Made by a program: the position numbers and the translations under genes. From a bacterium (GTDB taxonomy: Bacteria > UBP6 > UBA1177), in the NCBI GenBank assembly GCA_017405875.1, contig JAFQZM010000017.1, positions 124,001 to 188,000 of the forward strand: a stretch of DNA of 64,000 nt, in the 5' to 3' direction. Below, in pieces: positions 24,881-31,308 of the stretch. The notes under the pieces are model-generated. The model saw only the letters and a list, made by a program, of their open reading frames with translations, did not search any database and was not told the DNA's origin. Position 1 is the stretch's first letter, and each line of letters begins with the position of its first letter.

Positions 24881-26278
24881 ATGCTTGAGAGATTCGACAA
24901 TTATCAGTTGCTTTCAAAGATAGCGACGGGAGGAATGGCGGAGATTTTTCTTGCCAAACATGTGAATTCGCCTGTCAACTCGATGCCGATCGCGATCAAA
25001 AAAGTGCTGAAAAAATACAGCAACAATCCGATGCTTGTTAAGATGTTTCTTGCCGAGGCGAGGATAATCTGCAATATAAGCCACGAAAACATCGTTAAAA
25101 TCTACGATTTCGGAAAGTTCGACGATCAGTATTTCATTGCGATGGAATACGTTTTCGGGCAGAATCTGGGCGCGATAATCGAAAAACTCAAGGAAAGGGA
25201 TATGATCATGCCGCTCAATCTCACGATCGAGATAATTTCTGCGGTTCTATGCGGTCTCGACCACGCCCACAACGCTCAGGACAGAAACGGCAACTTCCTG
25301 AACATCGTCCACCTCGACATGAATCCGAACAACATCCTGATTTCCTACGAAGGAAAGATAAAAGTCGTCGATTTCGGTATCGCAAACGCGAATTACACAA
25401 AAAAATTCAAGGATGCTGCTGGAATTCAGGGAACTTATGCTTATCTTTCACCCGAACAGTGCAGCGGCAAGGCAGTCGACAGGCGCAGCGACATATTTTC
25501 GGTCGGAATAATCCTTTACGAAATGCTGACAGGTCAGACGCTTTTCAAGCAGCTTGACAACGATATGGCGATCATGAATGCGATTTTGAATGACGAGATC
25601 GAGCCGATAAACGAACTCATGCCGGAAATCGATCCGAATCTCGCCAGAATCGTTATGAAGGCGCTCGAAAAGAACCCGAACAGGCGTTACGCATCGGCGA
25701 TGGATATGCGCGAAGATCTGCTTAAAATCTACAATTCGCTTGAATTCGATCCAAACAGTGAAATGCTTCCAGCGTTCGTGAAAAAGCTTTTCCCTGCTCA
25801 TTTCATCAAGATGACGAAGATCATCGAACAGGCTCAGACCGAGTATCTGATGGATGAATTATTCAACAATATCGGTGAATTGGAAGACCTTGACCTCGAA
25901 GAGAAAAAGAAAACTGAAGAAGCGGCGCGTCAGAAGGAAGAGGCTGAAAGAAAGCGCGCGAAAAACAAGGCTTTCTTTTCAAAATTTGCTCTTATTTCAG
26001 GGATTGTCGCCGGGCTTGCGGTCATTGCGCTGATACTGAAATTCCTTTTTGTCGATCCCGATGTCAAAGTCGACATGATAACGGTTTTCTCGAATCCGGG
26101 AGGAGCGCAGATTTTTGTTGACGGCGAGGATACCGGCAAGGTGACACCCGCATCGCTTCAGCTGGAACACGGCAAAAAATATATCATTGATTTTATCAAG
26201 GACAATATGATAGGTACTCTTGAATTTACGCCGAGTTCAGAAAACCGTCAGATAAATATGCAGCTTAAACCAAGGTAA
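24881..26278 (+). CDS. Membrane Ser/Thr protein kinase with C-terminal PEGA domain
   Basis: A 465-residue Hanks-type kinase. The Gly loop A-T-G-G-M-A-E is at 16-22, the ATP-binding Lys at about 40, the catalytic loop H-L-D-M-N-P-N-N has Asp146 and Asn151, and D-F-G is at 164-166. The usual HRD Arg is Leu here, so it is a non-RD type. An acidic/basic juxtamembrane segment, one transmembrane helix (about 365-390) and an extracytoplasmic PEGA domain (about 400-463, S-N-P-G-G-A-Q-I-F-V-D-G) follow. This topology is usual in Myxococcota. The next gene begins 2 bases downstream. Substrates are not visible from the sequence. Confidence 0.93.
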   Translation: MLERFDNYQLLSKIATGGMAEIFLAKHVNSPVNSMPIAIKKVLKKYSNNPMLVKMFLAEARIICNISHENIVKIYDFGKFDDQYFIAMEYVFGQNLGAIIEKLKERDMIMPLNLTIEIISAVLCGLDHAHNAQDRNGNFLNIVHLDMNPNNILISYEGKIKVVDFGIANANYTKKFKDAAGIQGTYAYLSPEQCSGKAVDRRSDIFSVGIILYEMLTGQTLFKQLDNDMAIMNAILNDEIEPINELMPEIDPNLARIVMKALEKNPNRRYASAMDMREDLLKIYNSLEFDPNSEMLPAFVKKLFPAHFIKMTKIIEQAQTEYLMDELFNNIGELEDLDLEEKKKTEEAARQKEEAERKRAKNKAFFSKFALISGIVAGLAVIALILKFLFVDPDVKVDMITVFSNPGGAQIFVDGEDTGKVTPASLQLEHGKKYIIDFIKDNMIGTLEFTPSSENRQINMQLKPR

Positions 26279-26280
26279 AA

Positions 26281-27000
26281 ATGTCTTCCGCAGCGGTTAA
26301 AATTTCTCTGAAAAACGGCGAAACTGCTTTTTCCGAGCTCAATTCGGTCGATTTTATGGGGCTGTACCTCGATTTTTACGTGCAGAGTCCGGTCGAAGCT
26401 GTGCCGCAGGAGTGTTTTCCGAATCTCAAAAAACTGATTTCTTTCGCTCTTGCATATTTCCCGTTCATGCCGGAGGGCTGGAGTTTTGCGTGGAACGTCT
26501 CGATGCCAGTGCAGAAGCGCCGGCTTTTCTGCTGCGTTGATTCGGCAAACCGCACTTTTGTTGCGAAAACCCATTCATGGGAGCCTTCGCCTTACGAAAA
26601 AAATCCCAGGATGACGGTGCAGATGGTTTCCGATATTTCGGGAATGGAAAGCGTCACGATGGTCGACTGCGCAGAGAATGTTCCGTCGGATAAGATTTTA
26701 GGTGAGCTTTTTTCGAGATTTTTTTCCGACCAGTCGCAGAGTTTTCTGAAAATCTATGAAGAAGACGAAACTTTCGGGATAAAAAATACGGAAATTGATG
26801 AAGGCTCTGAAAATATTGAAGAAATTCAGGAGGTTGCATTCGCCTTCAGATGCGGCTGCACGAAAGAAAAAATCGCGAAAATTTTTCACAGAATGGCGCC
26901 TAAGGATATAGATTTTCTGTTCGAGCAGGAGCACACGCTTCAGGTCGAGTGTCCGAGATGCGGCTTTAAATACGGGATAAGAAAAAATGACATCAGATAA
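26281..27000 (+). CDS. Protein with Hsp33-like zinc-binding C-terminus
   Basis: In 239 residues the last 55 read like the redox-switch domain of Hsp33 (HslO): C-G-C near residue 190, a helical D-I-D-F-L-F-E segment, then C-P-R-C-G-F-K-Y. The four cysteines in C-x-C and C-x-x-C bind zinc in Hsp33. The first 180 residues do not look like the Hsp33 chaperone domain to me, and the whole is shorter than the usual 290 residues or so. It sits in a tight run with the kinase upstream (2 bases) and NAD kinase downstream (14-base overlap). A redox-responsive protein is the inference; a strongly diverged Hsp33 remains possible. Confidence 0.62.
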   Translation: MSSAAVKISLKNGETAFSELNSVDFMGLYLDFYVQSPVEAVPQECFPNLKKLISFALAYFPFMPEGWSFAWNVSMPVQKRRLFCCVDSANRTFVAKTHSWEPSPYEKNPRMTVQMVSDISGMESVTMVDCAENVPSDKILGELFSRFFSDQSQSFLKIYEEDETFGIKNTEIDEGSENIEEIQEVAFAFRCGCTKEKIAKIFHRMAPKDIDFLFEQEHTLQVECPRCGFKYGIRKNDIR

Positions 27001-27820
27001 AATTTCAAAAGTTTTCCTTTTTTTCAGGCGCGACGGCAGAAAGATCGCCGAGCAGCAGGAAACGCGGGCTTTTATAACCGAAAAAAGCAGGGAACTCGGT
27101 GTAAAAATCGTTGAAAACCCTGATGAGATCGAAGGATCCGACCTCGTCATCACGGTCGGCGGTGACGGAACTTTTCTTGCCGGAGCCTCTCTTGCTTTCG
27201 AGCGCAATATCCCGATAGCCGGAATAAATGTCGGTCAGTTAGGCTTCCTTGCCGAGATAAATCCTTGCGAAAAAACGATGATCACGAATCTTCTCAAGGG
27301 TGATTTCGACGTGAAACACCGCATGATGATGGATGTCAGGCTGATCCGCGAAAACAAAGAATTCGCCGCGTTCACGGCACTCAACGAAGTGACGATAATC
27401 CGCGACATCAACGTTTCTCCGATGCTCTGCTTCGGGATCGAATACAACGATGAAGAGATGCCGCAGTACAAGTGCGACGGGCTTATAGCGGCAACGCCGA
27501 CAGGTTCTACTGCATACAATCTTTCCTGCAACGGGCCGATAATTTATCCGGGAGACGAATCTTTCGTCATCAACGCGGTCGCACCGCACGCTCTGACACA
27601 CAGGCCGATCGTTCTTCCGGCATCCGGGTCGATCCGCGTCACTTTGAAGGAGTGCGTTCTCGGATTCCTCACCTGTGACGGCAAAAATTCGGTCAAAGTA
27701 TGCGAAAACGATGTCGTGCTTATCCGCAGGAACGAACGCGATCTGAGCGTCGTTTCAAACCCTGAAAGGAGTTTCTTCGAGATCCTTTCTGAAAGGCTCC
27801 ATCTTGGAAAGAGGTTGTGA
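26987..27820 (+). CDS. nadK: NAD kinase
   Basis: This enzyme phosphorylates NAD to NADP. The 277-residue protein shows the family motifs in order: G-G-D-G-T-F-L near residue 63, N-V-G-Q-L-G-F-L near 83, N-E-V-T-I near 130, and the T-P-T-G-S-T-A-Y loop near 168. Length is standard. It overlaps the preceding gene by 14 bases and the following Smr gene by one base (TGATG), so expression is coupled. Confidence 0.96.
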   Translation: MTSDKISKVFLFFRRDGRKIAEQQETRAFITEKSRELGVKIVENPDEIEGSDLVITVGGDGTFLAGASLAFERNIPIAGINVGQLGFLAEINPCEKTMITNLLKGDFDVKHRMMMDVRLIRENKEFAAFTALNEVTIIRDINVSPMLCFGIEYNDEEMPQYKCDGLIAATPTGSTAYNLSCNGPIIYPGDESFVINAVAPHALTHRPIVLPASGSIRVTLKECVLGFLTCDGKNSVKVCENDVVLIRRNERDLSVVSNPERSFFEILSERLHLGKRL

Positions 27821-28364: not shown

Positions 28365-29105
28365 TTACGAAATTTCCGAAAAAACTTTGCCTATCGGCTG
28401 ATTGATTTCAAGGTCGTTCACCGGATCGAGCTTGTAGACGAGGTGTTCTTTGTTGACGATGACAAGGTGTCTGCCTCTGAAATAGCCAACGTATGATGCC
28501 GCGGGATAGACTGAAAGCGAGGTGCCGCCGATGATCAGCATGTCGGCTGATGAGATTGCTGCAATCGCCTTTGTGACGGCCTCTGCCGGAAGCTGTTCTT
28601 CGTAAAGTGTGACATCGCAGCGTATTATTCCACCGCAGTCGCAGCGCGGAATCTGTTCTTTCGATTCGAAAATGTAGTCTGCCGGATATTTCTTTCCGCA
28701 TTTTGCGCAGTAGTTGCGTGTCGTCGTGCCGTGGATCTCGTAGACATTTTTGCTTCCCGCTTTCTGGTGGAGTCCGTCGATATTCTGAGTGACAACGGCT
28801 TTGAGTCTGCCGCGTTTTTCAAGTTCGGCAAGAAAGTAGTGCGCCGCATTCGGTTGGACATTTCTTGCGTCCATTTTCTGCCTGTAGAACTCGAAAAATA
28901 CGTCAGGGTGATCGACAAGGCAGCTGTGGCTCAGCAAGTATTCCGGCCTGTATTTTTCGAACTGGACGTCGTGCTGGTTGTATAGGCCGTCCTTGCTTCT
29001 GAAATCGGGAACGCCGCTTTCGGTCGATACTCCGGCGCCTCCGAAAAATACGATGTTTTCCGATCCTTCGATGAAATCTCTCAGTTTTTTGATTTTTTCG
29101 TCCAT
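28365..29105 (-). CDS. cobB: Sir2-family NAD-dependent protein deacylase
   Basis: The start at 29105 has a GGAGG ribosome site, and a longer frame into the upstream gene was rejected. The 246-residue protein shows G-A-G-V-S near residue 21, S-G-V-P-D-F-R, T-Q-N-I-D near 106, and the catalytic His in E-I-H-G. The zinc Cys pairs are C-A-K-C and C-D-C. The Tyr/Arg pair that selects succinyl groups in CobB-like class III sirtuins was not evident, so acyl preference is open. It lies 13 bases downstream of the EGF-like lipoprotein gene on the same strand and may be co-transcribed with it. Confidence 0.93.
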   Translation of the reverse strand: MDEKIKKLRDFIEGSENIVFFGGAGVSTESGVPDFRSKDGLYNQHDVQFEKYRPEYLLSHSCLVDHPDVFFEFYRQKMDARNVQPNAAHYFLAELEKRGRLKAVVTQNIDGLHQKAGSKNVYEIHGTTTRNYCAKCGKKYPADYIFESKEQIPRCDCGGIIRCDVTLYEEQLPAEAVTKAIAAISSADMLIIGGTSLSVYPAASYVGYFRGRHLVIVNKEHLVYKLDPVNDLEINQPIGKVFSEIS

Positions 29106-29118
29106 TTTATCCTCCGGT

Positions 29119-30225
29119 TTACTCTTTTTTAACGCATTTGGAACCGTTCCACTCATAGTCGTCTTCAAGGCATCTCGTGCAGCGGATATTTTGAGTGATG
29201 CTGTCATTTGGAATGCATACGGTTTCTATTGCTCCGTTGCTGAAATTTACCGCCCAGAAGCATGCTGATTCCGGATCGTATGATGATCCCGACCAAAATG
29301 TTTCCGAATCTCCTATTATGCTGTATATGCCGCTGTCATTCTGGCTGCAGCCTTCGCAGTAGTCACTGTAACAGCTCTCGTCATAGCATTCTTCGGAAAT
29401 CTCACAGCTTCCGTTTGTTTCGGTGTAGCTGCATTTCCGGATCAATGTTCTCAGCTGGCTTATCGAAGGCGTTTCCCAATCGTACAAGTGTCCCTCAGAG
29501 AGATTTTTGCATTTTTGGTGGTATTTATTATCGCGGTATTTCGATGACCAGATGAGTCCTGTTGAAGAGTCTTTGCACGGAACAGAGTCTCCGGGACCGC
29601 ATTCGTTCATTTCAATGCACTCTTCACCGTTCCAGCGGAATCCGGTTTTGCAGATGCAGGTGTATTCACTTGCAGATTTCGGGATACATTCTTTCAAATT
29701 TTGAAGATTTCCGCACGGATTCGGTTTGCACGGGTTGACACATTTGCGCGGATCCCAGAAATAATTTTCCTCGCAACCGCAGACATAATGCTGCTCATCG
29801 TCCTCATTCCATCCGTCTTCCTTTTCACAAACTCCTGTCGAATGGCTGATATCTTTGCAGGGGTTGGGGTCGCACAGGTCGATACACTTCAATTCGTCAT
29901 CTCCCCAGAAAAAGCCCTTTTCGCATTTGCAGTCGTATTTGTTGTAGTTTGATGCTGTGCAGACGCCTGTTGAGCCTGTGATGTCGCACGGTTTGCTTTC
30001 ACACGGATCTACGCATTTTTTTTCGGATTTGCGCGGATCCCATAAATAATTTCCTTCGCATACGCAGGAAAAATCCTCTCCGCCCCAGCCTTCTTCTTCG
30101 CAGATATCTGTTGCATGTTCAATATCATAGCACGGATTGGGTTCACACCCTTTTTTGTCTTTTTTCCAGCAGCCTGAAACCGAAAAAATCAAAATCAATA
30201 TGAAAATTATGGAAAGTTTTTTCAT
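29119..30225 (-). CDS. Cys-rich lipoprotein with EGF-like repeats and a DUF1566-like domain
   Basis: A 368-residue protein with lipobox VSGC (Cys19). Four EGF-like repeats of about 45 residues follow (roughly 25-205), each with the pattern C-x-P-N/K-P-C and then C-x-C-x-x-x-Y/F-x-W-D-P-R. About residues 205-350 form a domain with S-S-T-G-L-I-W, W-x-x-P and F-W-S-G-S-S-Y motifs, typical of the DUF1566/Lcl C-terminal domain. A final Cys pair ends the protein. This Ca/EGF-plus-lectin-like layout suggests a surface-exposed adhesion or binding protein with many disulfides. The ligand is unknown. The ribosome site is GGAG, 7 bases before the ATG. Confidence 0.82.
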   Translation of the reverse strand: MKKLSIIFILILIFSVSGCWKKDKKGCEPNPCYDIEHATDICEEEGWGGEDFSCVCEGNYLWDPRKSEKKCVDPCESKPCDITGSTGVCTASNYNKYDCKCEKGFFWGDDELKCIDLCDPNPCKDISHSTGVCEKEDGWNEDDEQHYVCGCEENYFWDPRKCVNPCKPNPCGNLQNLKECIPKSASEYTCICKTGFRWNGEECIEMNECGPGDSVPCKDSSTGLIWSSKYRDNKYHQKCKNLSEGHLYDWETPSISQLRTLIRKCSYTETNGSCEISEECYDESCYSDYCEGCSQNDSGIYSIIGDSETFWSGSSYDPESACFWAVNFSNGAIETVCIPNDSITQNIRCTRCLEDDYEWNGSKCVKKE

Positions 30226-30403: not shown

Positions 30404-30435
30404 ATTCGGCGTCCGGTTTTTTTGGGGTGCAGAAA

Positions 30436-31308
30436 ATGAGCAAAATTTCGATCCGTTTTTTCAACGACCGCGAGGTCAGAGCAGTATGGGACGAGGAAAA
30501 TTCCAAGTGGTGGTTTTCCGCTATCGATATAATTCAGGCGATCAACAACGAACCTGATTATGTCAAAGCCGGAAACTATTGGAGGTGGCTTAAAAAGAAA
30601 TTTTCAACCGACAATGTTCAACTCGTGAGTGTCACTCACGACTTCAAATTTAAGGCGCCTGATGGAAAAGAGCGTGCGGCAGACGCGCTTGACTATGATG
30701 CCGTTCAGATCATGGCAAAGCATTTTCCAAACAACAATGCCGTAAATTTTCTTGATTGGTTTAATTACAGCGACAATACCATTGACGGCCAGAGTAAGAA
30801 AAAGGCATATACATTTCTTCAAAGCAATCTTGTTGCGGATAAAGATATCGGAACGACTAAAGCACTGCTGCAAATTCATGCATACATTTTCGGCGGTCTT
30901 TACGATTTCGCGGGGAAGATCAGAACCGTAAATATTTCCAAAGGCGGTTTCAAGTTCGCGGCGGCGGAGTATCTGCCGAAAACTCTGGAGAAGATCGAGA
31001 AAATGCCCGAAAACACATTCGACGAGATCGTGGATAAATACGTTGAAATGAATGTCGCGCACCCTTTCCGTGAGGGTAACGGCCGCACAACGCGTATCTG
31101 GCTCGATCTTATGCTCAAGCGCAGCCTGAAGAGATGTGTCGACTGGAGTCAGATCAACAAATACGATTATCTTTCAGCGATGTCGGAAAGCATTCTTGAT
31201 TCCACAAAAATCAACGGACTTCTGAAAAATGCTCTCACCGATAAGATCAACGACCGCGAAATGTTTATGAAAGGGATCGACTATTCGTATTATTACGAAG
31301 AAGCTTAA
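30436..31308 (+). CDS. Fic-domain protein fused to a Bro-N-like domain
   Basis: The ATG at 30436 (a GTG at 30427 is possible) gives 290 residues. Residues 1-110 resemble the Bro-N domain of phage antirepressors: I-R-F-F-N-D-R-E-V-R, W-W-F-S-A-I-D-I-I, and Y-W-R-W-L-K. Residues about 115-290 are a Fic domain with G-K-I-R-T-V-N-I-S-K and the complete active motif HPFREGNGRTTR at 209-220. Fic enzymes transfer AMP or other phospho-groups to target proteins. I see no inhibitory (S/T)xxxE(G/N) helix and no antitoxin gene beside it, so the Bro-N part may control it. It looks like an accessory, phage-related gene. Confidence 0.9.
   Translation: MSKISIRFFNDREVRAVWDEENSKWWFSAIDIIQAINNEPDYVKAGNYWRWLKKKFSTDNVQLVSVTHDFKFKAPDGKERAADALDYDAVQIMAKHFPNNNAVNFLDWFNYSDNTIDGQSKKKAYTFLQSNLVADKDIGTTKALLQIHAYIFGGLYDFAGKIRTVNISKGGFKFAAAEYLPKTLEKIEKMPENTFDEIVDKYVEMNVAHPFREGNGRTTRIWLDLMLKRSLKRCVDWSQINKYDYLSAMSESILDSTKINGLLKNALTDKINDREMFMKGIDYSYYYEEA

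Follow-up and report, generated by a model that had tools for sequence, protein, structure and literature searches.

The open reading frame at positions 26281-27000 (+) of the analysed 64,000-nucleotide stretch of DNA (the window) raises the question of what kind of protein carries the Hsp33-type zinc motif found near its carboxy end. In the sequence-only reading the motif was taken for a redox sensor that would control a domain of a new kind. The boundaries of the frame were confirmed exactly: it starts with ATG and encodes 239 amino acids. Pfam, a family alignment, an AlphaFold2 model and fold searches were combined to describe the product, a short-linker Hsp33-like protein.

The zinc domain and its gene

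The Hsp33 zinc (redox switch) domain comprises residues 187-239 (26839-26997, +) and was recognized by Pfam, NCBIfam and the solved E. coli redox domain 1xjh_A. The Pfam HSP33 match was confined to residues 177-232, and since its 28.8 bits (E 1.1e-6) exceed the cut-off of 21.4, the zinc module is no chance motif. The NCBIfam Hsp33 profile gave an E-value of 2e-8 but stayed far below its full-length cut-off, and 1xjh_A was matched with the family profile at E 4.4e-7. The CGC motif (C191 and C193; codons 191-193 at 26851-26859, +) and the CPRC motif (C224 and C227; codons 224-227 at 26950-26961, +) were kept, with all four cysteines invariant, in each of the 16 full-length members of the family alignment. 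The spacer between them was 30 residues in 16/16 members and in 25/33 sampled canonical Hsp33s, so that CxC, CxxC and a spacer of about 30 are shared with Hsp33. In canonical Hsp33 the motifs read C-x-C and C-x-[FYW]-C. The protein is predicted to bind zinc. The C-terminal module had thus been identified correctly before, including its Hsp33 spacing; GFKY, described as the ending, is present at residues 228-231 but is followed by eight further residues.

In the genome of origin the Hsp33-like gene was the only PF01430 match, and a PF01430 search of that genome found no second, canonical HslO. Relatives were present in 17 of 28 genomes of the phylum, all of them in the family to which the window belongs, where they occurred in 17 of 19 genomes; the two family genomes without a match were G002 (59% complete) and G017 (91% complete). 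According to the record titles, the named relatives come from uncultured genomes, mostly from ruminant stomachs. A phage origin of the gene was rejected, as there was no PHROG match. Promoters and terminators predicted between 24700 and 28400 were about as numerous as expected from shuffled sequence (7 versus 3.8 and 4 versus 5.2) and were given no weight.

Fold and ancestry of the N-terminal domain

No Pfam family was found over residues 1-170, and residues 1-176 did not match the canonical Hsp33 profiles of Pfam or NCBIfam. Direct profile-profile comparison of the N-terminal domains of this type, which we call UBP6-type after three relatives whose records are titled 'bacterium UBP6', with canonical ones by hhalign, whose E-values refer to single comparisons, found nothing either (score 18.0; L066 and L086 were left out because their N-termini were trimmed short). 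By sequence profiles, then, the statement that residues 1-180 are unlike the Hsp33 chaperone domain was correct, but it did not hold for the predicted fold. The AlphaFold2 model of the 239-residue protein was confident (pLDDT 87.0, pTM 0.82), and Foldseek against the PDB, with the model as query, returned six matches at E <= 0.001, of which all, ranks 1-6, were Hsp33 (E 2e-9 to 1e-4). VIA-align superposed model residues 3-173 on the chaperone domain of Hsp33, at Z 14.9 for both 1i7f and 3m7m (for 1i7f residues 6-179, rmsd 3.3 over 154 residues), whereas the top unrelated fold reached only Z 5.3; rows of fluorescent proteins below the Hsp33 rows, at Z of about 5, were put down to the commonness of such barrel arrangements. 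Alignment with full-length 1vq0 gave Z 15.1 over 215 residues with an rmsd of 6.8, and because the rmsd is high over the full chain, the model suggests that the arrangement of the two domains relative to each other is not that of 1vq0.

A sequence bridge between the two types was found in Planctomycetota. There, 30 of 294 sampled genomes had a PF01430 match; most of these proteins were canonical, and a minority were divergent, with CGC and CPRC motifs. Ten divergent members were read, nine from loci of the 294-genome sample (one being in the genome of L056 itself) and L057 from a separate search. With hhalign the UBP6-type N-terminal domains matched those of the divergent Planctomycetota proteins with a score of 47.9 over 60 columns (maximum of 30 column-shuffled controls, 22.5), and the Planctomycetota domains matched the canonical ones with a score of 47.6 over 129 columns (maximum of 30 column-shuffled controls, 20.8). 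At the level of sequence comparison, the divergent Planctomycetota subfamily is thus a bridge from the UBP6-type domain to canonical Hsp33. In L056 the PF01430 match runs from position 4 to 268 out of 273. A model of this protein (pLDDT 87.1) aligned with 1vq0 at Z 20.1 and rmsd 3.4 over 240 residues. In a tree of 36 rows, for which 7 of the 16 full-length members were used, the UBP6-type, the divergent Planctomycetota and two Proteobacteria rows were split from canonical Hsp33 with support 100/100, nine canonical Planctomycetota rows falling on the canonical side; only this split was used, the branching order within the divergent group being unsure and the Proteobacteria pair carrying a long-branch warning with this family. 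The two Proteobacteria relatives (L058:5272-6162 and L059:3782-4657) have CRC/CPRC zinc motifs and linkers of 76-81 residues and are another divergent Hsp33 type.

Residues 1-169 (26281-26787, +) are therefore described, from the predicted fold, the fold matches and the Planctomycetota bridge, as an Hsp33 chaperone (N-terminal) domain of strongly diverged sequence. The S-[ED]-Q motif, present in 33/33 sampled canonical Hsp33s and in 10/10 of the divergent Planctomycetota members read, was found in only 3/16 family members. Six residues of the domain are conserved in the 16-member alignment (R80, D87, H98, W100, R110 and Q114), and such a pattern could point to a function more specific than holding unfolded clients.

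The reduced linker and selection

Residues 170-190 (26788-26850, +) form a reduced linker of 21 residues, as defined by the AlphaFold2 model, the alignment and dN/dS. The first zinc cysteine followed the end of the last strand of the chaperone domain after 19-21 residues in the five members of genus g1 measured and after 38-39 in two sister-genus members and in Planctomycetota L056 and L057. The canonical linker, anchored on motifs, spanned 57-67 residues in 31 of 33 sampled sequences (29 from genomes of one search around G049 and 4 from another search), the exceptions being L083, with a value of 33 due to a false motif match, and L023, which lacks the anchor. Family linkers were measured from an alignment column and canonical ones from a motif; L056, with Q just before the column, ties the two measures together. 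PMC7423844 describes the canonical linker as about 50 residues long with the motifs TxxxxE and RL(Y/F), neither of which was found by eye in the 21 residues. In the model this linker contains no helix, and its last 11 residues (180-190) are modelled as a strand that runs on into the zinc domain; in the L056 model two short helices are retained.

What really sets the protein apart, unnoticed in the sequence-only reading, is that most of its linker has been lost. Because the metastable linker of about 50 residues is absent, the protein is filed as a variant of the Hsp33 family and not as canonical HslO. It has the same two domains by fold, the same domain order and the same four-cysteine spacing as Hsp33/HslO (PF01430) of the E. 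coli and B. subtilis type, from which it differs in its linker, its CGC/CPRC motifs, the frequent loss of S-[ED]-Q and an N-terminal domain beyond profile recognition. With the divergent Planctomycetota proteins (L056, L057 and L143-L150), in which CGC was found in 10/10 and CPRC in 9/10 (one CRRC), it shares a divergent N-terminal domain, a shortened linker and a position in the tree apart from canonical Hsp33, but the linker of L056 and L057 is longer and S-[ED]-Q is kept in all ten. Values of dN/dS, determined for the 12 members, out of 16, that were equal in length and more closely related, were 0.107 for residues 1-163, 0.417 for residues 164-186 (linker region) and 0.116 for residues 187-239. 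Purifying selection is strong on both domains, and the linker is much less constrained.

Gene neighbourhood and possible function

Upstream lies a gene for a Ser/Thr protein kinase with a C-terminal PEGA domain (24881-26278, +; profile match), which stops 2 bases ahead of the start codon of the Hsp33-like gene and adjoins it in 15/15 loci. Downstream is the NAD kinase gene (26987-27820, +; profile match), whose first 14 bases lie within the Hsp33-like gene. The position between the two kinases had been noted before, but an overlap exists only with the NAD kinase gene. The order kinase, Hsp33-like gene, NAD kinase was found in all 15 named loci (L041-L055). Nine NAD kinase loci were inspected from genomes in which the Hsp33-like gene is missing or split, the Ser/Thr kinase being identified there by reading translations. 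In five of these (L110 and L112-L115, of G017, G019, G020, G021 and G023) the kinase directly precedes NAD kinase, with no Hsp33-like gene; in G018 the contig starts inside the Hsp33-like gene, and in G025-G027, which belong to another family, neither the kinase nor the Hsp33-like gene is present at the locus. The Hsp33-like gene thus lies between two genes that also occur side by side without it. The simplest reading is that it was inserted when the family arose and was lost in G017, the alternative being loss elsewhere.

Further downstream in the window, a Sir2-family ORF and a putative cysteine-rich lipoprotein, the latter with repeats and a sub-threshold Lcl_C match, are encoded at 28365-29207 (-) and 29119-30225 (-), respectively. 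The longest start of the Sir2-family ORF overlaps the lipoprotein gene, so its true start is probably further in. A Fic/DOC family protein is encoded at 30427-31308 (+).

That the protein is homologous to Hsp33 and has its fold is hardly in doubt. The idea that an Hsp33 zinc switch was fused to a new, unrelated N-terminal domain draws on the failure of both the Hsp33 profiles and the direct profile-profile comparison to match residues 1-176, but the model, the fold searches and the Planctomycetota bridge, including the L056 model, all lead to Hsp33; the proposal was rejected on the fold searches, and we regard it as very improbable. The AlphaFold comparison that had been proposed as a check of the N-terminal part gave Hsp33, the very outcome that the sequence-only reading had named in advance as refuting it and leaving only a diverged HslO. 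Decay of hslO into a pseudogene would fit the lower identity of the Hsp33-like protein at the distant loci L052-L055 (33-42%, where the kinase has 63-66% and NAD kinase 52-63%). It was rejected on the dN/dS of about 0.11 in both domains, no internal stops were found in 18 matches of the gene, and we give this explanation scarcely any credence.

More weight is due to two other readings, although we consider both unlikely. The protein could be an ordinary redox-activated Hsp33, in which the short linker does the canonical job and activation proceeds by oxidation and unfolding as in E. coli. In its favour are the invariant zinc cysteines, the retained domain order and fold, and the 38-39 linker residues of the sister genera; yet only 19-21 residues are left in g1, against the canonical length of about 50 given in PMC7423844, neither motif reported there was seen by eye, about half of the linker is a predicted strand, and it is the fastest-evolving part of the protein. 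Alternatively, the Hsp33 scaffold may now serve one of its neighbours, the Ser/Thr kinase or NAD kinase, as a dedicated partner or regulator and no longer be a general holdase. The constant gene order with its tight spacing is consistent with this, as are invariant polar residues in an N-terminal domain beyond profile recognition. However, the five genomes with the pair and no Hsp33-like gene show that neither kinase needs the protein, and no NAD kinase match was found in the examined flanks of the Planctomycetota relatives L056 and L057. We judge this reading improbable.

Overall, the protein is a member of a diverged Hsp33 (HslO) subfamily, composed of a chaperone domain, a reduced linker and a CGC/CPRC zinc domain; the explanation as a whole, function included, we consider probable. 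As such it would act as an ATP-independent holdase whose clients are handed to DnaK, a function that we favour by a small measure. Hsp70 matches are present in the genome of origin. One Hsp70-type match outside the window (G000:C15:91124-92650, profile positions 1-507) contains two in-frame TGA codons, which may reflect damage to this copy, a fault in the assembly or some other cause. Oxidative stress may be slight in the ruminant stomach, from which most named relatives come, and this counts against the explanation.

According to PMC4735815, the canonical linker rests on the hydrophobic face of the N-terminal domain, and its unfolding is necessary and sufficient for activation. In canonical Hsp33 the metastable linker shields the client site. 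As it is almost gone here, the client surface would either be exposed at all times or have the zinc domain lying directly over it, and oxidation or zinc loss would act by freeing the zinc domain rather than by linker unfolding. Such altered redox control is put forward tentatively. The core resembles that of 1i7f (Z 14.9), an isolated Hsp33 domain whose entry title refers to constitutive chaperone activity, but in the 239-residue protein a natural zinc domain lies close to the core. That this is a natural Hsp33 without the metastable linker, its client surface being gated by the zinc domain alone or not at all, is possible, though we would sooner bet against it.

No description of a short-linker Hsp33 subfamily was found in titles and the beginnings of abstracts, which is weak evidence, subscription papers being mostly outside the search. 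A survey (PMC7423844) reports no family with just one of the two Hsp33 domains. The divergent subfamily, with CGC/CPRC motifs and a shortened linker, is mostly caught by the Pfam profile only via its last 60 or so residues. The published activation model (PMC4735815, PMC7423844) rests on the unfolding of a linker of 40-50 residues. A lineage under purifying selection that has kept both domains and lost most of the linker makes this model testable, and if the gating proposed here is true, it would be a natural deletion experiment on the very element regarded as both necessary and sufficient for activating Hsp33.
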